Of a stretch of 64,000 bases of DNA, positions 35,983-57,195 are shown in pieces. Every line of letters begins with the position of its first letter. Position 1 is the stretch's first letter. The translations under genes and the position numbers were made by a program. Origin of the DNA: Oceanospirillaceae bacterium (GTDB lineage Bacteria; Pseudomonadota; Gammaproteobacteria; Pseudomonadales; Balneatricaceae); assembly GCA_013215505.1 (NCBI GenBank), contig JABSQZ010000013.1, positions 1 through 64,000 on the forward strand. The letters run 5' to 3'. The notes beneath the pieces are model-generated. The model was not told the origin of the DNA. It did not search any database and saw nothing but the letters and a program-made list of their open reading frames with translations.

Positions 35983-36082
35983 AAATTTAAGTCTCTACCA
36001 AAAATTATTAATATGCCCAAAAATATTCCCTAGCTTTTAAGGAAATTTGTGGATAAATAATAAAAATGTATAGCTTTCCAAA

Positions 36083-37465
36083 TCACCTACTAGATGTGCG
36101 GGTATAGTGTAAAGCGCTATTTGCCGAAAAACCGCACCATTGCGACATTTTGCGATAAGCATTCGAAAACCCTAGTAATGACCCTGTATACAAAATTTTA
36201 GAAGCATTCCCATAGTGTAAATTCATTTCATATCCATGGGCTAATGAATATAGAAAATCAGTATCTGCACGTATAAGATTTTCTGCGAAAGGAATACCGT
36301 ACTCATCATAACCCGCATAAGTATGGGTGCTATTGAACTGGTCTTGTTTGTAGCGGCTATCAATAATCCATTGGACACGATCATTATCTTTTAATCGGGT
36401 TGGATAACCACGCGCAGTCGCTGCTTTGAACCATACAGTTAAAGGGAAGTCAGGCGGAAGTCCATCACCCCAGGAAGCAAAAACCTGGATAGAATCGGTA
36501 CCTTCGCCTCCTGCTCGCAAAGAACAATTTGTAACCCAGTCGCCATCTTCTGTGGAAAATGTTTGTACTGATGCCTGCCAGTTTTGATACTGTTGCCTAA
36601 TATTTTTTGCTTTGTTGGGTCTCGATAATGAACCAATTGGAACACTAGGTTCAGAAGTGGCTGTTGGAGCCACTTTTAGTACATTATTAGCGGAAAAATT
36701 GCACCATTCAGATGCTTTAAGATATGACGCAGAAAAACCACTTAAGGAAGCAATATGTAGGGCTTTACCTGAATCATAATCGTACAGAGTTACTTTGCTC
36801 CCTTTTGCGAATGCACGAAAAAGCTCTAAAGTATCACCATCATCTAAGTTGCCCTGTATACTGTTTAAAGCGTAAGGGAAACCAGAATCATCGTGACCTG
36901 TATACGTATCACCTCTGTAGATGAATTCTTGGTTTTTGGCATTAACGACCCAAGTAACCTTTTGTTTATCCTGAAGTATCCTCTCGGAACCACGGTATAT
37001 CGTTTCAATAAATTCCACCGTTGGCATTGTACGCAGGTTTACACTTCCCAAACGTATTTCAGCGCCGATCGTGCTCACTCCGTCACCACCTGTATGGATA
37101 CGGCAGCTTGTTATCCATTCTCCATCGCTATCCTGAGTCGTATCAGTACTTGCGGTCCAAGCTTTATAATTTTGCTGTTGGTGATTCTCTTTGTTGCGCG
37201 AGGATATAGGTTTGGTAGTTTTCGATTTGATGCGAGCTTTAGCGGATGTGTTGGAAGAAGGAGGTGCAGTGGCAGTTGGGCTTTTTTTCTGACTTTTACT
37301 GTCCTTAGTTATACTATCGATAACTTCTTTAGAAATGCTTTCAACAACATCCTCTAATAAATCATCCAGAAACCCTGCTGCAGATACTGAAGTGTTATAG
37401 CTTAAAGCGAAAATAGTGGCGGTTGTTGCCAGTAATGCTCCTAATTTCGTCGCAGAGTAATTCAT
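36083..37465 (-). CDS. Secreted protein with an internal tandem duplication
   Basis: A 460-residue protein with a signal peptide ending near TSVSAAG. A short amphipathic segment (FLDDLLEDVVESISKEVI) and a Lys/Thr-rich linker are followed by two ~145-residue homologous domains. Shared landmarks are YKAWTAST/YQNWQASV, DGEWITSCRIHTGGDG/DGDWVTNCSLRAGGEG, GHDDSGFPYALN/GYDEYGIPFAEN, and [40 protein letters not shown]. Each has one cysteine at both ends, suggesting a disulfide. The layout recalls IalB-like beta-sandwich proteins, but that is tentative. It lies 100 bp from the next gene (35982), with which it may form a secreted pair. Confidence 0.75.
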   Translation of the reverse strand: MNYSATKLGALLATTATIFALSYNTSVSAAGFLDDLLEDVVESISKEVIDSITKDSKSQKKSPTATAPPSSNTSAKARIKSKTTKPISSRNKENHQQQNYKAWTASTDTTQDSDGEWITSCRIHTGGDGVSTIGAEIRLGSVNLRTMPTVEFIETIYRGSERILQDKQKVTWVVNAKNQEFIYRGDTYTGHDDSGFPYALNSIQGNLDDGDTLELFRAFAKGSKVTLYDYDSGKALHIASLSGFSASYLKASEWCNFSANNVLKVAPTATSEPSVPIGSLSRPNKAKNIRQQYQNWQASVQTFSTEDGDWVTNCSLRAGGEGTDSIQVFASWGDGLPPDFPLTVWFKAATARGYPTRLKDNDRVQWIIDSRYKQDQFNSTHTYAGYDEYGIPFAENLIRADTDFLYSLAHGYEMNLHYGNASKILYTGSLLGFSNAYRKMSQWCGFSANSALHYTRTSSR

Positions 37466-38017
37466 AAATTAATATTCCATTATATGATTTTTATAAATAA
37501 CAATAATTGATTTCATAATACGCCTGAGGCTATGTATAAATTGCGGTACTGCCTCTTTATGATGTATCGAAAAGCTGTTGTCTATTCGGCGAGATTATTC
37601 AATTAACGATTTAGATATAAGGAGTCAGTTTATCCTCGAATTTCATAATAGACTATATTATGGCAGTTACTAGGATGTTGAGGGGTTGATGCATTTCTTT
37701 CGTTGACATTCTAATAACTCTCGATGAATTTAAGTAATTACAACTGACGGTGATGGTTTAGAAACATAACAGGTTATTCAAGAACCTAAGGCCTTCTATA
37801 CCTTTGGCACTATTTGGTTTTCAAGTAATCCAGCATCGACTTTATTCTGTTTAAATTTCAAAGAGACATGAGTATTTGAACAGAAGTGATCTTTGTAAAA
37901 AAGTGCCAACTGATTCAAACCTAGGGAAATGACAGCTTTTGGCCGACAGTCGTCATAGCTAACCGAAATTACCGATTGGTTTAGCGGTAATTTCTGTTGC
38001 AGACATAGTGCTCTCCT
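37466..38017. other. Intergenic region with one long hairpin
   Basis: No gene is recognisable. GGCCGACAGTCGTCATAGCT at 37941-37960 matches the start of the ~87-bp repeat at 38966 and 45796. It is followed by a 10-bp inverted repeat GAAATTACCG (37965-37974) and CGGTAATTTC (37985-37994), close to the 3' end of the next gene. Confidence 0.6.
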
Positions 38018-38599
38018 TTAAGCGGTTGGTGCTGATGGGCGCATGGGCTCGCCGGAAGATTTAAGCTTGCCCTTAACTTCTAGAACGATTGCTACGATTG
38101 CTGCGATTAAAATTGCACCAAAAAATATTGGGTAAATTATGTCTTCATCTTCTAGGAAATCACCTATTGCAAAGAGTATGAATAGAACAATAACGGAAAA
38201 AATGTGCATAACTACAGCTGCTATTATAATACGGGTAAACTTAGCGACAATATTACGAAGCGGCTTGATGATGACACTAAGAGTTGTTGTAACTGCAATT
38301 AACAATAAGCCAAGCAAATTGTTAATTTCTGTTGTTTGAACAATTGCATACCAAGCAAGTACACCGGAGGCAAAACCGAATAAACCTGCCAAATTATTTA
38401 ATGTATTAGCTTCTGCATGACGATCCCATCTAGCTCGCCCCTCATCATCCATTAAGTCCCATTTAGCTTTGTTATTTTCGTAAATTCGAAGATCTTCCTG
38501 GTGTTCGATTAAAGCTTCTTGATAATGAGGGTTACAGTAATTTCTTCCTTGTGAAATTATTGTTTGACACTGACGACATCTTTTTGGTTCATTGCTCAT
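38018..38599 (-). CDS. Zinc-ribbon membrane protein
   Basis: A 193-residue protein starting at MSNEPKRC (ATG 38597-38599; the longer frame adds a non-conserved leader). A short zinc-ribbon-like head (CRQCQTIISQGRNYC) is followed by a charged cytoplasmic helix (ALIEHQEDLRIYENNKAKWD). Four hydrophobic segments follow: LAGLFGFASGVLAWYAIV, LLGLLLIAVTTTLSVII, IIIAAVVMHIFSVIVLFILF and IYPIFFGAILIAAIVAIVL. No known family. Zinc-ribbon plus four helices is seen in many small uncharacterised inner-membrane proteins. Confidence 0.72.
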   Translation of the reverse strand: MSNEPKRCRQCQTIISQGRNYCNPHYQEALIEHQEDLRIYENNKAKWDLMDDEGRARWDRHAEANTLNNLAGLFGFASGVLAWYAIVQTTEINNLLGLLLIAVTTTLSVIIKPLRNIVAKFTRIIIAAVVMHIFSVIVLFILFAIGDFLEDEDIIYPIFFGAILIAAIVAIVLEVKGKLKSSGEPMRPSAPTA

Positions 38600-38965
38600 G
38601 ACTGTCTCTAATTGGGTGCTAGTATAATTATCAGGGAGCATAAATTAGCTAACCTGCATAACAGGTTAATAGTGCGCTGGCGCATTTACATGAAAGTAAT
38701 ATTTACTAAATTTACACCAGCACTTTAATTTAAAAGTACTTTATTTACTGCAAGCTGTAGTTTTGATCAGGCTCACTTTCTACAAATATTGAGCGCAATT
38801 TCATTCAGAAGTAGTCTCCTAAACATTTGAATTTAACAGAAAACGAGAATGTCACTTTGTAGAAAAGTGCGCCATCGTTGAACTAAAAACAATCTTATGA
38901 ACAGATATATACTGATAGATTGTGCATTTATACAGCAAACGAATAAAGGCCCTAATATCAAAAAA

Positions 38966-39052
38966 AGGCCGACAGTCGCCATAGCTAACGAAGATTCACG
39001 CTTGCAAATCAGCCTGGGTAACGGAAAACCTGACACATTGCAGACATTTCAA
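38966..39052. repeat. ~87-bp dispersed repeat, copy A
   Basis: GGCCGACAGTCGCCATAGCT through CCTGACACATTGCAGACATT matches 45796-45883 in the same orientation with few differences. A truncated copy of its start lies at 37941. The remaining stretch 38600-38965 shows no gene. Confidence 0.88.
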
Positions 39053-39145
39053 AGGCCCTGGATAAAGATGTGGTGTCTAGTAATGGAGAAGCTTCCCCCT
39101 AATACTTGTGCAGCTTATTTGCAACGAAGCCGATTTGTGTATAAA

Positions 39146-40057
39146 TCAATTCACTCTGACCAAATTGATTCTAAGTAATTTTAGGTTTTTAACTATAGAT
39201 TCGACTAAATCATTTTCAGGTCGCCCATAAAGTGAAATATTCAAAGGAACACTTCCATATAGGTTACTTTTATCGATCAATTTTCCAGTCTCAATTTCAT
39301 GTGTTATTAAGCTCAAGGGTAACCAAGCCATACCGATACCATTTAATGCCATTTCGCGAATACCTGCTGAAAAAGCGGACTCACAAATAACTTGGAACGT
39401 TGGGTCGCGCGTTAAATTTTTGCAATTTGATGTAGATAATACTCGATCGAAAAAAGAATCTTTTGGAAAAGTAATAATTGGAATTTTATCAGGTAACGAA
39501 CCATCAGAATCTAACATAGGTATTAAGGAACCACCTACTACAGGGACTAAGTGATCAGTGCCCCATGTCATACTTAAAAAAGTGTCATCAAACGGGAATT
39601 TAGGATCGTCTGGTGCTTCATAACATAGCATGATATCGGCATCACCGCGTATTAGCATGGAAACACACTCGCCTTGGTTTTCTGTCTTTAAAGAATATGT
39701 TATTGGTTCAAATTTCACATTCACAAGAGATATAAAATCAGTAAACATCGAAATGGCCAGTGAGTGTTGAGCTGTGATAGTGAGATGTTTTTGCTCTGGG
39801 TCCGCCAGGCTCATTTTTTTCCGTAAGTCATTCAGGCGCAGAATCAGAGCTCTAATCTCTGCTTCGCTATTGCGGGTACTATCGCGAATTGTTACGCGGT
39901 TCACATTACGATCAAGAATCTCATACCCAAGCCAGTTTTCGAATGCACGAATTCTACGTGAAAATGCCGGTTGTGTGATATCGCGCCGTTGTGCAGCACG
40001 CGTAAGGTTACCTTCTTCAAGAAGGATGAGTACGTCTTCAAGCCAGCGTAAGTCCAT
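39146..40057 (-). CDS. LysR-family regulator of the amino-acid cluster
   Basis: A 303-residue regulator. The helix-turn-helix is at about residues 4-62 (EEGNLTRAAQRRDITQPAFS then RRIRAFENWLGYEILDRN), followed by an effector domain with IMLCYEAPDDP. It lies divergently 313 bp from the substrate-binding protein gene of a glutamate/aspartate-type importer, and a perfect 17-bp palindrome lies 38 bp upstream of its start (40096-40112). It most likely controls the divergent transport/racemase/transaminase genes in response to an amino acid or derivative. Family call firm, regulon inferred. Confidence 0.93.
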   Translation of the reverse strand: MDLRWLEDVLILLEEGNLTRAAQRRDITQPAFSRRIRAFENWLGYEILDRNVNRVTIRDSTRNSEAEIRALILRLNDLRKKMSLADPEQKHLTITAQHSLAISMFTDFISLVNVKFEPITYSLKTENQGECVSMLIRGDADIMLCYEAPDDPKFPFDDTFLSMTWGTDHLVPVVGGSLIPMLDSDGSLPDKIPIITFPKDSFFDRVLSTSNCKNLTRDPTFQVICESAFSAGIREMALNGIGMAWLPLSLITHEIETGKLIDKSNLYGSVPLNISLYGRPENDLVESIVKNLKLLRINLVRVN

Positions 40058-40095
40058 ATTAAAACATTCTCTTGGAGGTTGTTTTCAATTACTAC

Positions 40096-40112
40096 CCATA
40101 CTTAATGTATGG
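40096..40112. promoter_or_regulatory. Candidate operator of the LysR gene at 39146
   Basis: Perfect dyad CCATAC-TTAAT-GTATGG, with the ATAC-N5-GTAT core common to LysR sites. The rest of the 313-bp divergent region is AT-rich with no gene. Confidence 0.62.
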
Positions 40113-40370
40113 CTGGACGTATAATTTTGCATTTTATTTCATACATATCAACTGATAATGTAACTAAAGGTATGAATGGAAGACATCCCAACCATATTTA
40201 GTTCAAACAAACTACTCATTGATATAAAAATATAGTATTCCTTTGTTTGGTTATTCGGACATCTTCGATCCATCCAAATACAGTGGATAAGTGCATATCA
40301 GCAATAATTACCAACAAAAAAAAGAAATCGATAAACGACAGTAAATTAAAAACAATAAAGGAAAAAAATA

Positions 40371-41258
40371 ATGAAAAAATTTATTATAACAACAGCAATT
40401 TCAGCTTGTATTGCGATTGGATTTACTGGGGCGGCATTTGCAGACGCTGGCAACTCACCAACTTTGAAAAGAATAGCAGATCGAGGTTACGTCACTATTG
40501 GGCATCGCGAAACATCTGTCCCATTCTCGTATATTGGCGATGCACATGAGCCTATTGGTTATTCAATAGACATTTGCCTCAATATTGTTCAAGCAATAAA
40601 AACAGAATTGGGCAATGATAAGCTGACTGTGAAATACGTGCCCGTCACCGGACAAACGCGTATTCCATTGATCGCCAATGGCACTATTGATCTTGAGTGT
40701 GGATCGACGACCAATAACCTAACACGTCAAAAGCAAGTTTCTTATCTATCGACTACGTTCATCACCGGTACTAAGATCGCCAGCAAAAATGGATCAGGAA
40801 TTACTGAAATAGAAGATTTAGAAGGTAAAATTATTGGTATGTCAGCCGGGACAACTAATGAAAAAGCGCTAAAAGCTGCCATCGCTGAAAAAGGTATTGA
40901 TGTAAAAATTGTTACCGTAAAAGATCACAGCCAAGGCTGGTTAGCATTATCAACTGATCGTATTGATGCATATGGTTCTGATGATGTTTTACTCTATGGT
41001 TTGATTTCTAAATCGAAAAATCCAGAGGCGTATCAAGTGACCGGACGTTTCCTATCATTTGACCCGTATGCCATTATGGTGCCGCGCAACGATTCAACTT
41101 TTGAACGTTTGGGTCGTATCGTTATGTCCGATTTAATGCGATCTGGTGGTATGGAAACCATTTACAACAAATGGTTCGCTCCAGGTCCAACAAATATCAA
41201 TATGGCACTATCAGATCGGTTAAAAGGCGCGTTTGATACTCAAGCTTATCCTCATTGA
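40371..41258 (+). CDS. Glutamate/aspartate-type ABC transporter substrate-binding protein
   Basis: A 295-residue periplasmic family-3 binding protein. A signal peptide (KKFIITTAISACIAIGFTGA, cleavage after AFA) precedes the two lobes. The motif LECGSTTNNLTRQKQVSYLS is characteristic of GltI-like Glu/Asp receptors, and GYSIDICLNIVQAIK and GYVTIGHRETSVPFSYIG also fit. It is encoded first in the importer set and followed by two permeases and the ATPase. Whether it prefers D- or L-enantiomers cannot be read from sequence. Confidence 0.93.
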   Translation: MKKFIITTAISACIAIGFTGAAFADAGNSPTLKRIADRGYVTIGHRETSVPFSYIGDAHEPIGYSIDICLNIVQAIKTELGNDKLTVKYVPVTGQTRIPLIANGTIDLECGSTTNNLTRQKQVSYLSTTFITGTKIASKNGSGITEIEDLEGKIIGMSAGTTNEKALKAAIAEKGIDVKIVTVKDHSQGWLALSTDRIDAYGSDDVLLYGLISKSKNPEAYQVTGRFLSFDPYAIMVPRNDSTFERLGRIVMSDLMRSGGMETIYNKWFAPGPTNINMALSDRLKGAFDTQAYPH

Positions 41259-41336
41259 TCCAACTATCAAATCTATGATGTAACACTCAAGCGATGCATT
41301 TCATATCGCTTGAGATATTAAGGATAAGGGGAAGCT

Positions 41337-42056
41337 ATGCAGTATAATTGGGATTGGGGGATTCTTTTTAGAGACCCCTATATTTGGTGGCTCGTAGACG
41401 GATTGCAATGGACCTTAACGATCGCTATCTGCGCGTGGGTCATCGCTTTTTGCCTTGGATCGATTTTGGGCATAATGCGCACCTCAATCAATCCATATTT
41501 ACGCTTTATTGGAACGGCCTACGTAGAGCTATTTCGCAATGTACCTTTGTTGGTCCAACTGTTCCTTTGGTATTTTGTATTTCCAGAATTACTGCCAGAA
41601 GAGGCAGGGCGCTGGGTGAAACGTGAAATGCCGATGCCAGGCTTTACTACTACAGTATTGGCCTTGGGTTTGTATACAGCTTCTAGGCTTTGTGAACAGG
41701 TACGTTCTGGCATCGAGGCAGTTGGTATTGGTCAGCGCAATGCAGGTCGAGCAATCGGTTTATCAGAAACGAAAGTGTATATTCATATACTGTTACCCAA
41801 TGCATATCGAATTATTATTGCCCCGCTTACCAGTGAGTTTCTAACTATTTTTAAGAATTCCTCCCTCGCTTTAACCATTGGCGTTATCGAATTAACGGGG
41901 ATGACACGGCAGATTGAAGAGTATACCTTTCAAGGATTTGAAGCTTTTACTGCCGCGACCGTTATTTATAGTTTAGTTACCTTTACGGTCATGGGCTTTA
42001 TGCTTCATCTTGAAAAACGCCTGTACGTTCCAGGCATGATAGCAGCGGAGAAATAG
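41337..42056 (+). CDS. Amino-acid ABC transporter permease 1 (GltJ-like)
   Basis: A 239-residue His/Glu/Gln/Arg/opine-family permease with several transmembrane helices (for example LVDGLQWTLTIAICAWVIAF). The EAA loop is AGRAIGLSETKVYIHILLPN, which docks on the ATPase. It ends 1 bp before the second permease begins, so the two are co-translated. The partner receptor at 40371 points to Glu/Asp-type substrates. Confidence 0.93.
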   Translation: MQYNWDWGILFRDPYIWWLVDGLQWTLTIAICAWVIAFCLGSILGIMRTSINPYLRFIGTAYVELFRNVPLLVQLFLWYFVFPELLPEEAGRWVKREMPMPGFTTTVLALGLYTASRLCEQVRSGIEAVGIGQRNAGRAIGLSETKVYIHILLPNAYRIIIAPLTSEFLTIFKNSSLALTIGVIELTGMTRQIEEYTFQGFEAFTAATVIYSLVTFTVMGFMLHLEKRLYVPGMIAAEK

Positions 42057-42057
42057 C

Positions 42058-42714
42058 ATGGGTGATTTTGATTTTGCAATTATATACAATAATCTTCCCT
42101 TCCTACTTGAGGGTATGAAAACGACACTTCTCTTAACGGTTGCTGCCATATTTGGTGGGATTGTTATAGGAACAGTACTCGCTATGATCCGCCTGGCAAA
42201 TATCCCTGTTCTGAGTTGGGTCGCCGCGGCCTATGTCAATTTCTTCAGATCACTGCCGTTAATCCTGGTCATCTTTTGGCTTTATTTTTTAGTGCCATTG
42301 ATCTTGGGTCGACCTGTAGGGGCATTTGCTTCAGTTCTTGTTGCTTTCGTTCTCTTCGAAGCCGCGTATTATTCCGAAATCATTCGAGCGGGGATTTCCA
42401 GTATACGCTCTGGCCAAGCCGCCGCTGCCCGTGCTATCGGAATGACCTATTCTCAAACGATGCGTTTTATCGTTTTGCCGCAGGCCTTTAAAGCAATGAT
42501 TCCAGTTTTGTTGACACAAGCGATTATCCTTTTTCAAGACACTTCATTGGTGTACGTGGTGGGGTTAAAGGATTTCTTAGTGAGTGCAGAGCTCATCGCC
42601 AACCGTGACCAAAAACTTATTGAGATGTTTGTGTTCGTGGCCGTTGTCTATTTTACAATCTGTTTTGCAGGCTCAATGATTGCCAGCCGCATACAAAGGA
42701 AGCTACCAGTATGA
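42058..42714 (+). CDS. Amino-acid ABC transporter permease 2 (GltK-like)
   Basis: A 218-residue permease of the same family, with EAA loop [20 protein letters not shown] and helices such as [20 protein letters not shown]. It forms the membrane heterodimer with the preceding protein. Its stop overlaps the start of the ATPase gene by 4 bp. Confidence 0.93.
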
Positions 42715-43439
42715 TACTAATGGAAAATGTCAGTAAATGGTATGGCTCGTTTCAAGTTCTTAATGGCTGTACAACATCCGTATCCAAAGGGGAGGTTGTC
42801 GTTGTTTGTGGACCATCCGGCTCAGGAAAAAGTACATTAATCAAAACCGTTAATGGTTTGGAAACTATTCAAGAAGGTAAAATTACTGTTGAAGAAACTA
42901 TTGTTTCTAACAGAAAAACCAACTTGAACCAATTGCGCTCTCGTATTGGTATGGTTTTTCAAAACTTCGAATTATTTCCCCATATGAGTGTTCTGGAAAA
43001 CGTTAAGCTTGGTCAAATGAAGGTGCTCGGTCGTGCGGACTCTGAATCTGAAAATAAAGCAAAGCTGTTATTAGATCGTGTGGGGTTGGCTGATCATGCT
43101 GCCAAATTTCCAAGCCAACTCTCTGGTGGTCAACAGCAGCGTGTGGCAATAGCGCGGGGATTGGCGATGGATCCGATTGCGATGCTTTTCGATGAGCCGA
43201 CCTCCGCACTTGATCCCGAGATGATCAATGATGTACTGGACGTTATGGTGGAATTAGCCAACGACGGAATGACCATGATGGTGGTGACCCATGAAATGGG
43301 GTTTGCCAAAAAAGTGGCCGATAGAGTGGTGTTCATGGATGAAGGAAAAATCATTGAAGATGCTACAAAAGATGATTTTTTTGGATCACCACGCAGTGAT
43401 AGAGCACAACAGTTCTTATCAAAAATACTGTCTTATTAA
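42711..43439 (+). CDS. Amino-acid ABC transporter ATP-binding protein (GltL-like)
   Basis: A 242-residue ATPase with Walker [11 protein letters not shown]-loop [12 protein letters not shown], signature [18 protein letters not shown], Walker [14 protein letters not shown] and switch VVTHEMGFA. All canonical, typical of polar amino-acid importers. It completes the four-gene importer. The next gene, the racemase, follows after 385 bp containing a terminator-like hairpin. Confidence 0.95.
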
Positions 43440-43777
43440 TCACCGCTAGCAAAGTAAAGATGATCATAAACTGTTTATGTAAGTGGTTATTATTTGGAAT
43501 GACCAAACGCCCATATCTAGTTTTTTTCATCTCGAAGCATTGTGTCAGCCTCGCCATGACCACGGATCGAGATGTCGTAAAATTTACCCAAAGGGAGCGA
43601 TCACCGCGTTCAATAATACGGCGTTAAAAATCGGTTCAATATCCAAGAAGCAGGAGCACACTGACTCCGCTATTGGGCCGACTTTGCCTTGTTTTATTGT
43701 CGCTCGCTACCTTTTACGACAGTCTCTATTAGGATCAAAACCCGCTAGTTTTCGGTGTTTTTACAGAAAGCCATCAT

Positions 43778-43803
43778 GCGCAGTGTAGCTTACTGCGCGT
43801 TTT
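43778..43803 (+). terminator. Terminator-like hairpin before the racemase gene
   Basis: GCGCAGT-GTAGCTT-ACTGCGC (7-bp stem, 43778-43798) then GTTTTC, ending 22 nt before the racemase ATG. It may end the importer transcript or attenuate read-through. The remaining bases 43440-43777 contain no recognisable gene. Confidence 0.6.
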
Positions 43804-43824
43804 CACCAGAAAAAGGACATCATC

Positions 43825-44568
43825 ATGGTAACACCCCGGAAGGTTGGAATCCTGGGAGGTATGGGGCCAGAAGCAACCGTGCTTTTAATGCAGAAAATTA
43901 TTCAAGCAACGCCCGTTAAAAATGATAATGATCATATTCCCATGATCGTGGACAACAACCCTCAGGTGCCTTCACGTATTGACGCTTTGATCCATGGTAA
44001 AGGAGAAAGCCCTGGCCCTGTTCTAGCCAAAATGGCTCGAAGTCTAGAGGATGCGGGTGCAGAGGTACTGATCATGCCCTGCAATACCGCGCATCACTAT
44101 GCCGATTTTATTAATTCAAGTACCTCTGTCCCTTTTCTAGATATGATCTTTCTTACTTCTAAAGAAATAGCGGCCCTACTACCTACGGGGAGTAAAATAG
44201 GTATTTTGGCCTCTTCCGCGGTGCGTTTGACTGCGCTATTCGAAAATGCACTGGCTAAAGTTGGGCTGCAAGCGATCTATGCAACAGATGACAGCATTTT
44301 ACTAGCAACTATTCAGATGATAAAGGCCGATGGCCCTTCACAAGATGCATTGAATGTTTTGAATAATGTTGTTGAAGATTTAGAAAATGCGGGTGCCGCA
44401 GGGATTTTAATAGCCTGTACTGAATTCTCATTACTTAGTAAATCAGTCTTAGCCACAGTGCCCATTTTGGACAGCCTTGAAGTTATTGCTCAAAAAACAG
44501 TTGATTTTTCCTTAGCAAAATATCCAGCCAAAAAGGAGGTTATCTCGCAAAGTTTACATCGAATGTAA
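43825..44568 (+). CDS. Aspartate/glutamate racemase-family protein
   Basis: A 247-residue cofactor-independent racemase of the Asp/Glu/hydantoin racemase superfamily. GILGGMGPEAT opens the fold, and the two catalytic cysteines sit in MPCNTAHHY (Cys86) and ACTEFSLL (Cys198), where the usual GCTE is ACTE. It is closer to aspartate racemases and YgeA-like broad-specificity enzymes than to MurI, which is encoded separately at 7742. Between a Glu/Asp-type importer and a D-amino-acid transaminase it is best read as interconverting L- and D-aspartate or glutamate. Confidence 0.92.
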   Translation: MVTPRKVGILGGMGPEATVLLMQKIIQATPVKNDNDHIPMIVDNNPQVPSRIDALIHGKGESPGPVLAKMARSLEDAGAEVLIMPCNTAHHYADFINSSTSVPFLDMIFLTSKEIAALLPTGSKIGILASSAVRLTALFENALAKVGLQAIYATDDSILLATIQMIKADGPSQDALNVLNNVVEDLENAGAAGILIACTEFSLLSKSVLATVPILDSLEVIAQKTVDFSLAKYPAKKEVISQSLHRM

Positions 44569-44678
44569 ACACTAACCTTTAGAAAAATCATGCAGCCTAT
44601 TACTCCAGCCACACTATTACAGAGGCTAGGTACTAGAGGGTAGCAGTCATCAATTTTAATAAAATTAAAGGATTTATA

Positions 44679-45527
44679 ATGAGTAGAATTGTCTATGTAA
44701 ACGGGGAGTTTTTATCTGAGGAAAATGCTAAAATTTCTGTTTTTGATCGCGGTTTTCTGTTCGCGGATGGAATTTATGAAGTAACAACCATTCTCGAAGG
44801 ACGATTGATAGAAAACGCACCACACCTAGCTAGATTGGCGCGTTCTGCAAAAGAGCTAAATATAGAATTACCTTTGCCTATTGAAAAAATTGAAGAAGCT
44901 ATGCGCTTGCTTCTAGAAAAAAATAACGTTCAAGAAGGGGCACTCTATCTTCAGGTAACCCGCGGACCAGCTGATCGTGATTTTGCTTTCCCAAAAGAAG
45001 CTAAACCATCACTTGTCATGTTCACCCAAAAGAAAAATCTGATAAATAATAAATCAGTAGTAAACGGAATTTCAGTTAGATCTGTTCCTGATATTAGATG
45101 GGCCCGTCGCGACATCAAGACAACTCAATTATTGGCTGCTTCTTTAGCTAAGCAATCAGCATTAGATGCAGGTGCTGATGACGCATGGTTGGTTGAAGAT
45201 GGATTCGTTACAGAAGGAAGTTCAAATAACGCATATATTTTTACCAAAGAAGGGGTGCTTGTGACTCGTCAACTGGGGAATGAAATTTTACATGGCATTA
45301 CTCGTTCTGCAATTTTAAAACTAGTTAAACAGGGAAATATTAAATTAGAAGAACGACCTTTCACGCTGCAAGAAGCTCATAGTGCACAAGAGGCATTTGT
45401 TAGCAGTGCTACAACCTTCATATGGTCAGTAGTAAAAATAGACGGCAATATTATAGGTTCTGGAGAGCCAGGACCTGTAGCTAAAAAGTTACGTCGAATT
45501 TATATTGATGAAGTTCTTGCTCGTTAA
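44679..45527 (+). CDS. D-amino-acid transaminase (fold IV PLP enzyme)
   Basis: A 282-residue fold-type-IV aminotransferase close to D-alanine aminotransferase (Dat). It has VYVNGEFLSEENAKISVFDR and GFLFADGIYEV at the N terminus, the PLP Lys in ARRDIKTTQLLAASLAKQSA (Lys147), and FVTEGSSNNAYIF in the cofactor phosphate region. The carboxylate-trap region is LQVTRGPADRDF, lacking the His of Bacillus Dat, so specificity may differ. It lies 110 bp after the racemase. It would transfer amino groups between D-amino acids and 2-oxoacids. Confidence 0.88.
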   Translation: MSRIVYVNGEFLSEENAKISVFDRGFLFADGIYEVTTILEGRLIENAPHLARLARSAKELNIELPLPIEKIEEAMRLLLEKNNVQEGALYLQVTRGPADRDFAFPKEAKPSLVMFTQKKNLINNKSVVNGISVRSVPDIRWARRDIKTTQLLAASLAKQSALDAGADDAWLVEDGFVTEGSSNNAYIFTKEGVLVTRQLGNEILHGITRSAILKLVKQGNIKLEERPFTLQEAHSAQEAFVSSATTFIWSVVKIDGNIIGSGEPGPVAKKLRRIYIDEVLAR

Positions 45528-45795
45528 ATATCTCCTTTTTAATTTGTTCAAAAGAAGCTCCAGAAGCTAGATATTACGCTGGATGTTTGTGCTATATCGC
45601 TTGGGATGTGTCAGCCTAACTCGATTATCGAGAACTGTCGCACTCAAGTTTTGGGTGGCCATCTATTGCGTTGTGAGTCTTGTCAGCGCAATCATATTTT
45701 ATACAACTCCTATCGTGCCCCTTCCCTATGAAGCAGATGTCATCAAACTATATTCTTCAAATTATGGGACACCATCTTGAGAAAACGTCTGCTAG

Positions 45796-45883
45796 TGGTC
45801 GACAGTCGCCATAGCTAGCCGAAGATTCACCGCTTGCAAGTCTGCCTGGGTAACGGCAAAACCTGACACATTGCAGACTTTTT
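45796..45883. repeat. ~87-bp dispersed repeat, copy B
   Basis: Same orientation as 38966-39052: GTCGACAGTCGCCATAGCTA through CTGACACATTGCAGACTTT. Otherwise 45528-46348 holds only a non-conserved 114-codon minus-strand frame (45757-46101) that I could not recognise. Confidence 0.88.
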
Positions 45884-46348
45884 AGATCAGGATTAACACC
45901 GATAGCACGCGATTTTTGGAGTGCGAAGCAGCGGAAAAAATTCGCCGTGGCCGACTTCCGCCAGTCACGGTTAAGCACTTGCCAACCGTTTTTCTGACTC
46001 ATAGCTGCCGTTTCAAAAGCACTGATAAAATGAGTATTGTGACCCAACAAGCGTCTAAAAAACAGGGTGCTTATCAAAGCGTTCATAACACAAATACTCA
46101 ATGCTTAACCTTCCTTCTAGAGCTATGTACGGTAAACTTTCTCTAGTATCTTCTTGCAATAGAGATTGAATTACTTCTATACGATTAGGAATATTAAGCA
46201 AGTCTCTGAACCCAGATTAAGTCAAATAACGTCGCGATAGCGGGCGCTTATAAAACCGCGAATAAATACTTTAATCCATTGTATTCACGGCTATTTTAAA
46301 AGCTGTCGCACTGAAAATTGTCCCGTTAATAGCCTTGTTATGGACAAT

Positions 46349-46783
46349 TTAAACACACCTGACCATCTTCACATGAGGGATTCCCGTGCTCTTAGCTACA
46401 TAGGAGTCTCCAGTGACCTCAAAACCAAATTTTTCATACATTGGCACGGCATGTAATCTAGCGTTGAGGTAAACCTCTTTTGCACATTTTTCTAGCGCTA
46501 TATTGGTGATTTTTGCAAGGATTTGAGTACCTAGCCCCTTACCTTGCATTTCAGGACGAACGACCATCTGAGATATCTTGAATATATGTGGGGTTTCTTC
46601 GCTAAGCCTTCCATAAGCACATAACACCCCATTATCTGCTATAGCAACGTGAATACTGTCCTCTTCTAGAGCATCGAACAGTATTTCTCGTGGGAGATTG
46701 GGCTCACGAAAGAACAGCTCATACCGCAAATCTAAAGCATCGCTGTAAAGCTCATCCGTGCTTTCTAGTTGAATAATTTCCAT
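46349..46783 (-). CDS. GNAT-family N-acetyltransferase
   Basis: A 144-residue acetyltransferase. The acetyl-CoA-binding motif A is QMVVRPEMQGKGLGTQILAK (Q/R-x-x-G-x-G), and motif B is VYLNARLHAVPMYEKFGFEV. The compact length and NARLHAVPMYEKFGF pattern fit ElaA/YjcF-like GNAT enzymes. The substrate is unknown. Single gene. Confidence 0.9.
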   Translation of the reverse strand: MEIIQLESTDELYSDALDLRYELFFREPNLPREILFDALEEDSIHVAIADNGVLCAYGRLSEETPHIFKISQMVVRPEMQGKGLGTQILAKITNIALEKCAKEVYLNARLHAVPMYEKFGFEVTGDSYVAKSTGIPHVKMVRCV

Positions 46784-46860
46784 TCATCTCCTTGTCCATA
46801 CAGCTTAATACTGTGCATGCGCGTTTGTAGAAATAACGAGCTTCTGGTTATTTGTTTTTG

Positions 46861-46884
46861 TTCATGTTTATGTTTATGTTTATG
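46861..46884. repeat. 6-bp tandem repeat (TTTATG)
   Basis: Three TTTATG units preceded by a TTCATG variant, in an otherwise gene-free stretch 46784-47243. Confidence 0.9.
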
Positions 46885-47211
46885 TTATTGATATTGTGGC
46901 TGTTTCTGAAAATTCCCAAGTGTAATTGGACATGGAAATTCAATTTTAATATGCCAACACGCACGATTATTGCGTTCATCGCAAATACTGCTGTCTTTAT
47001 AATCAGTGTTGTAAATGTAAAAATTTATATCAGACGTGACCGAAATTGGCCGTTAGTTGTCATCTGTTAATGAATAGGGGCTCTCTACAGGTTCTCACCC
47101 AACCTCCTACATGTGCGGTTTTGCACTCAAGTAGGAAAAAGGCAAGGCCTGATCCCGTTCTCCTCTTCCGCTCTTTGTTTTAATAGCGCATGGTCTAATC
47201 GAGCAATGGAA

Positions 47212-47236
47212 GATGCAAACTATTTTAGTTTGCATC
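47212..47236. other. Perfect 11-bp inverted repeat
   Basis: GATGCAAACTA-TTT-TAGTTTGCATC, 8 bp beyond the stop of the 56-residue gene (minus strand). It may terminate or stabilise that transcript. Confidence 0.7.
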
Positions 47237-47243
47237 ATTCGCA

Positions 47244-47414
47244 CTATTCTTTTGTCTTAATTGTTATTTCAATCTTTTTATTATCACCTGCAAACCATTT
47301 TTGCACGTAGATAGACCCCAAAACCGGTGGCATACCGTTTTCAGGTACTTCTTTGTATCGAATACTGTTTTTATTTAGCTTTTCAAATTCGAATGTAATT
47401 ACTTTCTCAGCCAC
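47244..47414 (-). CDS. Small 56-residue protein with GTG start
   Basis: The frame reads MAEKVITFEFEKLNKNSIRY then KEVPENGMPPVLGSIYVQKW and ends FAGDNKKIEITIKTKE. It has no Met start and is under 60 codons. GTG at 47412-47414 is preceded by AAAGG about nine bases away, and an in-frame stop lies shortly upstream. The alternating charged/hydrophobic strands and the GSIYVQKW motif look like a small conserved beta-barrel-like protein; similar short proteins (FEE-x(n)-P-GTLYVxK) are common hypotheticals. The stop lies beside a perfect hairpin. Function unknown. Confidence 0.7.
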   Translation of the reverse strand: MAEKVITFEFEKLNKNSIRYKEVPENGMPPVLGSIYVQKWFAGDNKKIEITIKTKE

Positions 47415-47589
47415 AACTGCTTCAACCTTTGTTTAATATTACGATGCACATTGTATAAGTGCAGGTAAATATATTCTACTGTTGCCAGCTACAGTCAGAC
47501 CGTTATCAATGAATGAGTAGAATTAAAGGGGGTAGCCTCCCCCCTTGACCACTACAAGTTAGCTTAACCAGGCGGAAGCATGTCCGACA

Positions 47590-49356
47590 TCATAAACAGG
47601 CTTCTTTGAGGTATTTTATAAAATTTCGTTTTGCTTTATAAGTAATTGCTAAGCGCGCTAGCAATAGACTAAATTCGCTTTTTGATTTTGGCGTATGGCA
47701 TATTTTTTTGACAGTTATCAATGCTGAGATTGCTTGGCGATAGTGCTCGTTATCTGAGAATCTAACATAAGCTGCTATCAGCTTTTCATACAATGGCAGT
47801 GTCACGTCGGGGGAGGCGGGGTAGGCATCAATTAACCGAGATAAGTATTCTTTGGGGAGTTTATCTTGTGCCTCTATCTGAAGAATCTCGGTGTGGCGTT
47901 GATGATAAAAAAGTATATCTAGTATTAAACGGCTAAAGGTGAATTGATTAAGGGGATCTTCTTTTTGCCGCTCCCTTAATTGATCTAAAATTGTCTGTGG
48001 CTCAAAGCTAAATGCCTGGGGCACTGAGTTATAACTATGCTGCTCGCTAAACTGGTGCATTTTTTTATACAGACTAAATGAAGGTTTAGTGCTAAATGCT
48101 TGATCGAACAGACTATATGCTTGCGTATGCTTTTCTTGTTGTACCAGTAATTTAACTTCAGCGTTTAATAACTGGTGGGTAACATAGTGCGAATCTTTAC
48201 TTTTCTGGGCACGTTTAAGTGCCATTGCTGCACGTTCCCACTCAGCTGCTTCAATTAAAAAATCTACCAGCTTTACAAAATCACTGGCTGTGCGTGCGTT
48301 GCGCTGTTGCAGTTCTATTAAAAGGTCTAGGTTCTTGGTCTGTCTTGCATAATCATTAAGTTTATAGAAGAAAAGATGATAATGGCTATTTTCATCCCAG
48401 GTTTCACTCCATTTTTCAGTGGCCGAAGGTACGGGTATTTTTTGCCAAAGGAGCAGCAATGCCTGATAAAAAGCGTCGCGGCCCTCATCGCCCAATAAGT
48501 GCTGATAGGCACTAGGGACATCAGGTGCTATTTCATTATTTTCTTTAAGCTTGGTCAACAAAAACGCAACCAACTCTTGTAGACTAAACTGTTTTGCTTC
48601 AACCACCTGAATAAATAGCTGGCCTAAGCTATCTTGGCAGTGAAACCGATAACCGCCTGAGTCATCCACGCTCTGCAATGCCTTGTCTAAACGGCTCAGC
48701 GCATAATCCGTTAAAGAAAACAGTAGGTCGGTACTCAATCCTTCACGTTGCTCCACTAGTAAATCGATAATTGGCTCAGCTTGCGCAAAATATTGGCCGA
48801 CTTGCGAATAGCGGTGCAAGTGTTTATTTAACGGAAATGCCTGAGTAATTTTTTTCTTGAGGAATGTGGCATCTACAGGATTGAGCGCATTGTGAGCACG
48901 TAACGCCCACTGGCTAAAGTGTGCTTTATCCTCTGAGATTAACTTCAATAAGCTAATTTCAAGATCACTGCGCTCTAACTTTTCTAAAAAGCGCCGCAGG
49001 GTATCTAGCTCTTGCTGTTTTGCAGAAATTTTAGGCTTTTTAGTGATAGTGCTGGTTATTTGGTTTTCGCGAACCGCGAGTACCACGGCCACACAGTGCT
49101 TACAGAAATCTATATTCTCGGAAGCTGGGCAGCTACAATGGCCATCTACTCCTTGCAGCGCGAAGGTTAGCTGTTGTTGATAAGCATAATTGCCACTGAC
49201 GTTTGCAGTTACCTTGGTACCATTTATCTTATATACCAGCTGAGGATCTTGTTTGTAATAACTGCAGCCTCTTTGAAACGCACTAGTACCAGCCAAACGC
49301 TTAAGTTTTTCATCACTGAGGTCAAGCGCATCTAAGTTGAGAGGGGAGGTGGGCAT
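47590..49356 (-). CDS. SWIM zinc-finger protein
   Basis: A 588-residue protein whose SWIM finger lies near residues 72-92 (CSCPASENIDFCKHCVAVVL, the CxC...CxH pattern). It is preceded by GCSYYKQDPQLVYKINGTKV and followed by a long alpha-helical region resembling tetratricopeptide-type hairpins. SWIM proteins bind DNA or proteins; bacterial forms are often near SNF2 helicases, but none is near here. The ATG at 49354-49356 is the only start at the beginning of the conserved region. Confidence 0.88.
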   Translation of the reverse strand: MPTSPLNLDALDLSDEKLKRLAGTSAFQRGCSYYKQDPQLVYKINGTKVTANVSGNYAYQQQLTFALQGVDGHCSCPASENIDFCKHCVAVVLAVRENQITSTITKKPKISAKQQELDTLRRFLEKLERSDLEISLLKLISEDKAHFSQWALRAHNALNPVDATFLKKKITQAFPLNKHLHRYSQVGQYFAQAEPIIDLLVEQREGLSTDLLFSLTDYALSRLDKALQSVDDSGGYRFHCQDSLGQLFIQVVEAKQFSLQELVAFLLTKLKENNEIAPDVPSAYQHLLGDEGRDAFYQALLLLWQKIPVPSATEKWSETWDENSHYHLFFYKLNDYARQTKNLDLLIELQQRNARTASDFVKLVDFLIEAAEWERAAMALKRAQKSKDSHYVTHQLLNAEVKLLVQQEKHTQAYSLFDQAFSTKPSFSLYKKMHQFSEQHSYNSVPQAFSFEPQTILDQLRERQKEDPLNQFTFSRLILDILFYHQRHTEILQIEAQDKLPKEYLSRLIDAYPASPDVTLPLYEKLIAAYVRFSDNEHYRQAISALITVKKICHTPKSKSEFSLLLARLAITYKAKRNFIKYLKEACL

Positions 49357-56433: not shown

Positions 56434-57195
56434 TCAGCCGTAAAACCATGGGTTAGCTGACAAATAGCCGAGCAACCCTCGTACTAGCCCGGTCAGCGAC
56501 AGCAGTAGCAGCAGCGCTATCACAGCGCGGCGCAAGTGTCTTTCATTTAGCTTGTGAAAAAACACAGTGCCTATCTGAATCCCCAAAGCCATCGGCAACA
56601 CCATAATCGCGCTGTAGATAACCAGCGACTGGTGGTAGAGATCATGTGCCGATACAGACAAGATAAGAATAAGGTCTGCGCCAAAAAAGAACAGTACTAA
56701 AGTCGCCCGCAACTGCGGCATGCTCATGCGCACTGAAGCTAGAAAGGTTGCCACCGGCAAGCCGCCTACTGCAGAGGAGCCATTACAGATACCGGCGAAT
56801 AGCCCCATACTCAAATAACTGCTTTTCGTCACGACTCCCCGGTACTGCCAGCCGGATAGCAATAGCAAACTCAAGATGAAGATCAAGCCACTTAGTAGTA
56901 ACCGAATATCCGTAGCTGATAACAATACCAGTGCATAGACCCCCAACGGCGTAGCTATTGCAGTACCGGCTAACAAGTATAGCAGCGGCCGAAACGCCGC
57001 CTGACGCCAAGTACTGGCAGCCATATGGATACTGGCAACTATCTCTAAAATAGCCACCATCGGCACTACCGTGGCAGGAGGCATAAAGAGTGCCGCCGAG
57101 GCAACCACTAACGCCGAGAAACCAAAACCGATGCAGCCGCGCACTACCCCAGCTAGCGCCACAATCAAACTCAGTAACAGCCACTCATAATCCAT
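56434..57195 (-). CDS. TauE/SafE-family membrane transporter
   Basis: A 253-residue protein of eight hydrophobic segments. ATG 57193-57195 is preceded by GGAG and gives MDYEWLLLSLIVALAGVVRG, the standard start; an extended frame to 57252 adds a non-family leader. The family repeats GFGFSALVVASAALFMPP and GICNGSSAVGGLPVATFLAS are recognisable. Members export sulfite or organosulfur anions, but specificity here is undetermined. The gene is single, divergent from the OYE gene. Confidence 0.9.
   Translation of the reverse strand: MDYEWLLLSLIVALAGVVRGCIGFGFSALVVASAALFMPPATVVPMVAILEIVASIHMAASTWRQAAFRPLLYLLAGTAIATPLGVYALVLLSATDIRLLLSGLIFILSLLLLSGWQYRGVVTKSSYLSMGLFAGICNGSSAVGGLPVATFLASVRMSMPQLRATLVLFFFGADLILILSVSAHDLYHQSLVIYSAIMVLPMALGIQIGTVFFHKLNERHLRRAVIALLLLLSLTGLVRGLLGYLSANPWFYG

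Follow-up and report, generated by a model that had tools for sequence, protein, structure and literature searches.

Gene content and arrangement of the cluster

The DNA analyzed here (hereafter, the window) comprises bases 1–64,000 of contig 7 in the genome of an Oceanospirillaceae bacterium (5.73 Mb, 52 contigs, 98% complete), and it carries seven genes encoding a LysR-family regulator, a four-gene ATP-binding cassette (ABC) importer with a GltI-type receptor, an amino-acid racemase, and a D-amino-acid transaminase (Table 1). An initial annotation had described these genes, and open reading frames are present for all seven at the positions it gave, with domains that agree in family searches. 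The gene content, as well as the clade membership, synteny of relatives, pocket residues, and presence of unlinked genes reported below, was established by computation.

Table 1. Genes of the cluster, with positions in the window
Product	Position	Strand	Basis and remarks
LysR-family regulator, CuyA-linked subfamily	39146-40057	-	HTH_1 and LysR_substrate (Pfam); divergent from the importer
GltI-type periplasmic receptor, cuy-linked subfamily, Gly at GltI position 72	40371-41258	+	PRK10797, tree, synteny
ABC permease 1	41337-42056	+	HEQRo_perm_3TM, 72 bits (cut-off 42.2); BPD_transp_1
ABC permease 2, GltK-like	42058-42714	+	PRK15107, 239 bits, below the cut-off of 318
ABC ATP-binding subunit, GlnQ-like	42711-43439	+	Family searches; below the equivalog cut-off
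Amino-acid racemase, CuyA-linked (CuyB) clade	43825-44568	+	Asp/Glu/hydantoin racemase domain; Cys86, Cys198, D43, S50, M70, S130, A132
Fold-IV D-amino-acid transaminase, PRK06680 subfamily	44679-45527	+	378.1 bits; putative D-cysteate transaminase

Within the importer, the genes of permease 2 and the ATPase overlap, and 78 bp separate the receptor from the first permease. The racemase gene begins 385 bp behind the ATPase gene, and the transaminase gene follows on the same strand after another 110 bp. Because of these two gaps, the importer and the enzymes may be separate transcripts. Thus, the initial view that the genes belong together is borne out for the association of LysR, importer, and racemase, whereas a single operon is not shown. 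Promoter-like and terminator-like sites are no commoner than in shuffled sequences (16 versus a mean of 18.3 and 8 versus a mean of 6.5, respectively), and an Rfam search of positions 36,000–48,000 at E values up to 0.1 gave zero matches.

Additionally, a repeat of approximately 86–105 bp flanks the cluster on both sides in the same orientation (38,967–39,049 and 45,797–45,882), with a short copy at 37,941–37,978. It has 40 matches in the genome including the query, and these are crowded at 687–780 kb of contig 1 and 168–174 kb of contig 52. Several copies carry inverted ends (AAATGTCTGCAAT / ATTGCAGACATTT), resembling a miniature inverted-repeat transposable element. The repeat has no Rfam match.

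The importer and the regulator group with relatives from cuyA loci

The receptor contains the CGSTTNN motif, as initially annotated, and its best NCBIfam match is a glutamate/aspartate model; on PRK10797, it scores 228.8 bits, below the curated cut-off of 375 (with no control scores from further GltI-like receptors of its order). It is 53–56% identical to receptors encoded beside cuyA, the gene of the D-cysteate sulfo-lyase, 77% identical to that of locus L149 (L and G numbers denote our loci and genomes), and 41–45% identical to the 12 closest receptors of its own order. Similarly, permease 2 and the ATPase share 59–62% and 71–74% identity, respectively, with their counterparts beside cuyA in L134, L141, L142, L146, and L148.

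Based on the neighborhoods of these relatives, L134 (genome G622) has the window's importer type within a complete cuy locus: genes for a racemase and CuyA (547.8 bits) are divergent from a LysR gene, behind which come the receptor (56%), two permeases, and the ATPase (74%). A search with the L134 receptor in 198 genomes of the family of G622 found six carriers at E 1e-80. Besides G622, these are G986 and G1087, in which CuyA directly precedes the receptor; G1091, where a CuyB-clade racemase lies at a distance of 7 kb, separated by other genes; G1067, where the receptor stands next to the end of its contig; and G1050, where 18.8 kb contain no CuyA and no racemase. Moreover, 87 plasmid records match the receptor, among which five from Phaeobacter stand out at 55.5%. 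The two opened (L141 and L142) show a LysR gene divergent from CuyA, receptor, permease, permease, and ATPase. Relatives of the importer lie directly behind cuyA in L141, L142, L146, and L148, and the CuyA proteins of L141, L146, and L148 score 521.8–530.8 bits (cut-off 450). Two more distant plasmid receptors (L143 and L144, approximately 40%) are encoded in an operon of another kind, together with a dehydratase and an aminotransferase. In the receptor tree, the window receptor lies in one clade with the cuyA-adjacent receptors (97/98); this tree carries a long-branch warning, and it places the divergent order receptors L089 and L090 on the cuy side.

The binding pocket differs from that of GltI at position 72. 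According to PMC10942590, Ser72 of GltI touches the carboxylate on the glutamate side chain, and GltI-based sensors with S72A, S72P, or S72T shift from a preference for glutamate to one for aspartate. Serine occupies this site in DEBP and in 12 of 15 order receptors, the other three having Pro, Ala, and Ala. Pro is found in six cuy-subfamily receptors (L134, L141, and L145–L148), Gly in the window receptor and L149, and Leu in L143 and L144. The loss of serine therefore argues for a ligand the size of aspartate. Site 72 alone cannot separate aspartate from cysteate; the synteny does.

The regulator points in the same direction. On a profile built from 10 cuyA-adjacent LysRs, the window LysR scores 219.8 bits, the LysR beside a CuyB-clade racemase in L026 scores 270.2, LysRs near other racemases score 174–180, and that of L041, beside a CuyA of 471.3 bits, scores 155.4; all remaining LysR frames reach at most 65.6. 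This search was limited to frames of 220–419 residues, and the LysRs of L007, L012, and L013, which lie in longer frames, were therefore left out. The window LysR is 40–41% identical to the LysRs of L141, L142, L146, and L148. In a tree built without the L146 protein, it is sister to the cuyA-linked LysRs of L141 and L148 with support of 100/98.

The racemase belongs to a CuyA-linked clade

The NCBIfam CuyB model NF052483 accepts the racemase at 275.9 bits (cut-off 190), and the Asp/Glu racemase model PRK10200 does not (59.6 of 417 bits). The closest solved relatives of the protein are aspartate racemases. Cys86 and Cys198, which the initial annotation had singled out, align with the cysteines of the aspartate racemase 1jfl. 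In a tree of 42 racemases, the window racemase falls within a clade of 31 rows (support 100/100), outside which lie 1jfl, 3s7z, the host's own paralog L003, the order relatives L034–L038, and L005, L027, and L029. cuyA is present in the fetched stretch for 24 of the 30 other clade rows; those without it are L012, L014, L021, L026, L033, and L096. L030, a piece below the 180-residue limit, and L031 were not entered in this tree, the placement of the long sequences L003, L005, and 3s7z is unsure, and L032 is labeled by cuyA in its wider stretch L059.

Several alignment columns are invariant in the 31 rows and different in 1jfl. Five of them, chosen after the alignment was seen, were followed (D43, S50, M70, S130, and A132 in window numbering; L82 is a sixth). 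All five residues occur in every clade row and in L134 and L147, none in 1jfl, and one in 3s7z. S50 adjoins Arg51, which aligns with Arg48 of 1jfl; Arg48 and Lys164 are presumably the substrate-binding residues of that enzyme.

The neighborhoods of the relatives were mapped with tblastn markers, keeping matches with at least 35% query coverage at E 1e-6. The nearest relative (L006, Candidatus Halocynthiibacter, 69%) lies directly behind cuyA, and in 21 of the 26 named GTDB loci that carry the racemase, cuyA is no more than approximately 6 kb away. Among the rest, L031, itself a partial racemase match, has cuyA in two pieces, L014 and L026 stop at a contig edge near the racemase, and L012 (16.7 kb) and L021 (13.4 kb) show no cuyA. 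The GltI-type receptor and the transaminase are both absent from these 26 stretches, of which some are truncated at contig ends. Of 34 matching plasmid records, six were opened, and cuyA is in the stretch in all except that of Ruegeria pomeroyi. In a phylum scan of 398 genomes, six carry the racemase at E 1e-50 including the window's own, and cuyA stands beside it in all five others. Wider class and order relatives show cuyA in L059 and L065 and a CuyA-like gene in L050. The racemase is rare near the host, occurring in 8 of 194 order genomes at E 1e-30 and 2 of 369 class genomes, the host being counted in both, and in none of the six members listed for the host's family.

The R. pomeroyi DSS-3 racemase without cuyA in its stretch (SPO_RS20085, L096:8001-8699) lies in the CuyA-linked clade and has all five residues. 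This protein is a candidate, on sequence grounds, for the cysteate racemase of R. pomeroyi.

The cuy loci contain further recurrent genes. Genes for a DegT-family aminotransferase, a taurine-type ABC importer, and a HisD-family protein accompany several of the alphaproteobacterial ones, and Desulfovibrio loci have GltP-like (Glu/Asp-type) symporter genes beside cuyA-cuyB. The HisD-family gene recurs in L009–L011, L015, L016, L031, L059, L097–L099, L101, L131, and L133, and its product could serve to oxidize an amino-alcohol sulfonate, for instance cysteinolate. Near their cuyA-importer operon, the Phaeobacter plasmids L141 (1758-4570) and L142 encode an aspartate ammonia-lyase, a symporter, and a racemase of 477 residues that has two racemase-like parts.

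As for the gene order, on whose conservation the initial annotation had made its reading depend, none of the other loci searched showed all seven genes in this order, whereas LysR with the importer or with the racemase stands beside cuyA elsewhere, and all of these come together with cuyA in one locus.

The transaminase and putative desulfonation genes of the genome

The transaminase (TRANSAMINASE) passes the PRK06680 model (cut-off 320), and its closest solved relatives are D-alanine aminotransferases. Lys147 aligns with the lysines of solved D-amino-acid aminotransferases, in agreement with the initial annotation, and we take it to be the residue that binds pyridoxal 5'-phosphate. Its relatives have other surroundings: the cuy enzyme, LysR, and receptor markers lie beside it in none of 15 other loci (10 from the order and five of 124 plasmid records; stretches of 3.8–12.8 kb). 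A relative closes the dgcN-dgcA operon in Vibrio tritonius and Ruegeria TM1040, and in two other plasmid loci, one comes after a 5-oxoprolinase gene. Transaminases of this type thus occur in company with acidic D-amino acids, compounds to which cysteate is similar. Dgc models are absent among the matches listed for nine scanned proteins of the cluster and its flanks, and the genome was not searched for dgcN or dgcA.

Neither the window nor the 20 kb that follow it gave a CuyA match at E 1e-4. We considered and rejected the idea that the gaps hold a decayed cuyA, as 14 proteins compared with six gaps gave only short matches, the best with 18 residues at E 0.01. The genome encodes three unlinked CuyA-like proteins (402–414.5 bits), which we do not accept as CuyA on the basis of score and tree. 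Two of the genes are each paired with a TauE/SafE exporter gene (L069:7639-9466 and L070:3407-5203), and their products group with the CuyA-like protein beside a racemase in G450. Separately, a weak TauE/SafE exporter match (23% identity, E 4e-6) lies at 56,530–57,195 of the window on the minus strand, approximately 11 kb from the cluster.

The genome also encodes Xsc (996.6 bits, cut-off 676.4), near genes for an aminotransferase, a GntR/aminotransferase-type regulator, and phosphate acetyltransferase (Pta). Moreover, a cluster of the 2,3-dihydroxypropane-1-sulfonate type on contig 19 (L118:865-9437) comprises a TRAP importer, a HisD-family dehydrogenase, short-chain and zinc dehydrogenases, a fused ComDE-like decarboxylase, and a TauE exporter.

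A proposed cysteate pathway and its alternatives

By both synteny and trees, the regulator, the importer, and the racemase each group with cuyA-linked relatives, so that uptake and racemization of cysteate, the sulfonate analog of aspartate, is the most economical reading. We estimate a probability of roughly 0.7 that the cluster imports and processes cysteate; the substrate, the direction, the regulation, and the fate of D-cysteate are what we infer from these comparisons. An acidic amino acid as substrate with a D-enantiomer involved, as initially proposed, remains very likely. In this pathway, the LysR of the CuyA-linked type would control the GltI-type ABC importer, which, with a receptor that has lost the glutamate-favoring Ser72, would bring in cysteate, and the CuyB-clade racemase would interconvert L- and D-cysteate inside the cell. 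The usual partner, CuyA, is absent from the cluster, and the D-amino-acid transaminase stands there. Two fates of D-cysteate may be considered. First, the transaminase may turn it into 3-sulfopyruvate, from which acetyl phosphate and sulfite would be made by the fused ComDE-like decarboxylase and Xsc, whose genes lie elsewhere; second, one of the three unlinked CuyA-like proteins may cleave it. With Xsc and a weaker match to a fused ComDE in the genome, a transamination of D-cysteate to sulfopyruvate could be followed by desulfonation. We propose this step by the adjacent transaminase only tentatively, and the entire CuyA-independent route through the D-enantiomer, from the GltI-type importer through the CuyB racemase, a D-cysteate transaminase, and fused ComDE to Xsc, likewise falls short of even odds.

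Several observations weigh against the cysteate pathway. For the cluster itself, the distance between the ATPase and the racemase leaves co-transcription open, and the closest receptor (L149) has neither cuyA nor cuyB in 18.8 kb. For the racemase, 1jfl also passes NF052483 (250.9 bits), while on the general model TIGR00035, 1jfl scores 387.1 and the window racemase 137.8; the CuyB model is not specific, the name alone therefore proves little, and names derived from NF052483 need context. Accordingly, the CuyB name at face value was rejected after this control. The L141 racemase of Phaeobacter likewise scores 353.8 on the CuyB model although it lies beside an aspartate ammonia-lyase, a context that suggests aspartate. 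When the racemase tree is taken as a whole, the cuyA label clusters no more than chance would allow (eight changes against a shuffled mean of 9.7, with 63 of 500 shuffles needing no more than eight). Outside the clade, four racemases also have cuyA or a CuyA-like gene alongside (L005, L027, L029, and L035, the last with a CuyA-like neighbor below the cut-off at 385 bits); they have 0, 4, 2, and 0 of the five residues, respectively. Furthermore, the wider order relatives L060–L064 lack cuyA in 11.8–16.7 kb. For the downstream steps, no CuyA above the NF052482 cut-off was found in the 98% complete genome (best 414.5 of 450), and the three CuyA-like proteins lie outside the cuyB-linked CuyA clades. 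The fused ComDE-like protein (372 residues) is below the cut-offs of both sulfopyruvate decarboxylase subunits (179.4 of 221.5 and 122.5 of 147.95), and it also matches phosphonopyruvate decarboxylase (170.6 of 312.5).

Cysteate import and racemization may also hold with the transaminase as an unrelated neighbor, the unlinked CuyA-like proteins cleaving D-cysteate. We give this version odds close to those of the transaminase route, likewise below even. The pairing of two of the three CuyA-like genes with TauE/SafE exporter genes is consistent with it, as are the gap of 110 bp in front of the transaminase and the absence of cuy genes beside the transaminase in the 15 other loci examined. In contrast, the CuyA-like proteins miss the cut-off and the cuyB-linked clades, the LysR beside the L069 pair scores only 48.2 on the cuyA-LysR profile, and the transaminase lies directly behind the racemase on the same strand.

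The initial annotation favored D-Asp or D-Glu, which would be imported, racemized to the L form, and transaminated into central metabolism. The best family match of the receptor and the closest solved relatives of the racemase agree with that substrate, and the changes at site 72 favor Asp-sized ligands, fitting aspartate as well as cysteate. The transaminase comes closest to this proposal, with relatives in dgcN-dgcA operons in two of the five plasmid loci opened, which also counts against cysteate. However, cuyA-linked relatives, and not canonical GltI or 1jfl, are the proteins with which the receptor, LysR, and racemase cluster, the five clade residues are absent from 1jfl, and a second Asp/Glu-type racemase is encoded on contig 12 (PRK10200, 322.9 bits, below the cut-off of 417). 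After weighing synteny, trees, and pocket residues, we placed D-Asp or D-Glu below cysteate and consider it improbable. Still more remote as substrates are D-cysteine and other sulfur compounds that resemble aspartate, for example cysteine sulfinate: CuyA proteins match D-cysteine desulfhydrase models below their cut-offs, and CuyA can act on D-cysteine too, according to PMC10507020, a point that weighs against cysteate as well, but the acidic-amino-acid receptor, the racemase family, and the taurine-type importer genes in related cuy loci point to a sulfonate.

Relation to known systems and implications

The window combination is a variant of the known cuy system. With the cuyA-cuyB loci and cuyARZ of R. 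pomeroyi, it shares the CuyB-clade racemase, the CuyA-linked LysR, and the importer subfamily of cuyA operons. Unlike CuyA-type cysteate degradation, the cluster has a D-amino-acid transaminase instead of cuyA, in a genome in which no CuyA above the cut-off was found; such a transaminase stands beside cuy genes in no other locus examined. Compared with GltIJKL, the order of receptor, permease, permease, and ATPase, the receptor family, and most compared pocket residues are the same, whereas Ser72 is replaced by Gly and Met181 by Ser, and the receptor sits in another clade, with the cuy-linked receptors. Similarly, the racemase shares its family, the two cysteines, and the conserved Arg51 and Lys167 with the aspartate racemase of Pyrococcus horikoshii (1jfl), which lacks D43, S50, M70, S130, and A132 and lies outside the CuyA-linked clade. 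With the DgcN-DgcA D-glutamate operon, the cluster shares the transaminase family (54–58% identity), but its racemase belongs to another family.

A four-gene cysteate uptake system, cuyTUVW (SPO3040-3043), is described for R. pomeroyi in PMC10130141, and we liken the window importer to it as a putative system of the same make-up. An earlier paper (PMC9038784) gives SPO2658-2661 as the cysteate importer of R. pomeroyi, in conflict with the later knockout paper (PMC10130141), which names SPO3040-3043; we therefore dropped SPO2658-2661 as proof of cysteate import by such importers. According to PMC10130141, R. pomeroyi is the only roseobacter, or nearly the only one, with the cysteate transporter, and cysteate is an organosulfonate inside diatoms and coccolithophores. 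The interconversion of sulfopyruvate and cysteate, CuyB, and CuyA are described in PMC11382572 (2024), which calls two R. pomeroyi enzymes, the aminotransferase and the cysteate racemase, unknown. The present gene arrangement was not found in the literature on cysteate metabolism that was searched, most subscription literature lying outside the search.

Marine bacteria take up cysteate, while the amount released is unsettled; for axenic diatoms, PMC8027193 reports that no cysteate release was seen. The public CuyB model is shown here to accept a characterized aspartate racemase. The locus and its relatives name testable candidates for the importer, the regulator, the racemase, and possibly the transaminase of cysteate, and site 72 of GltI-type receptors may separate aspartate- or cysteate-binding receptors from glutamate receptors. 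If the proposed transamination is true, this enzyme would close the gap that cysteate metabolism has at the aminotransferase, and would do so on the D side.

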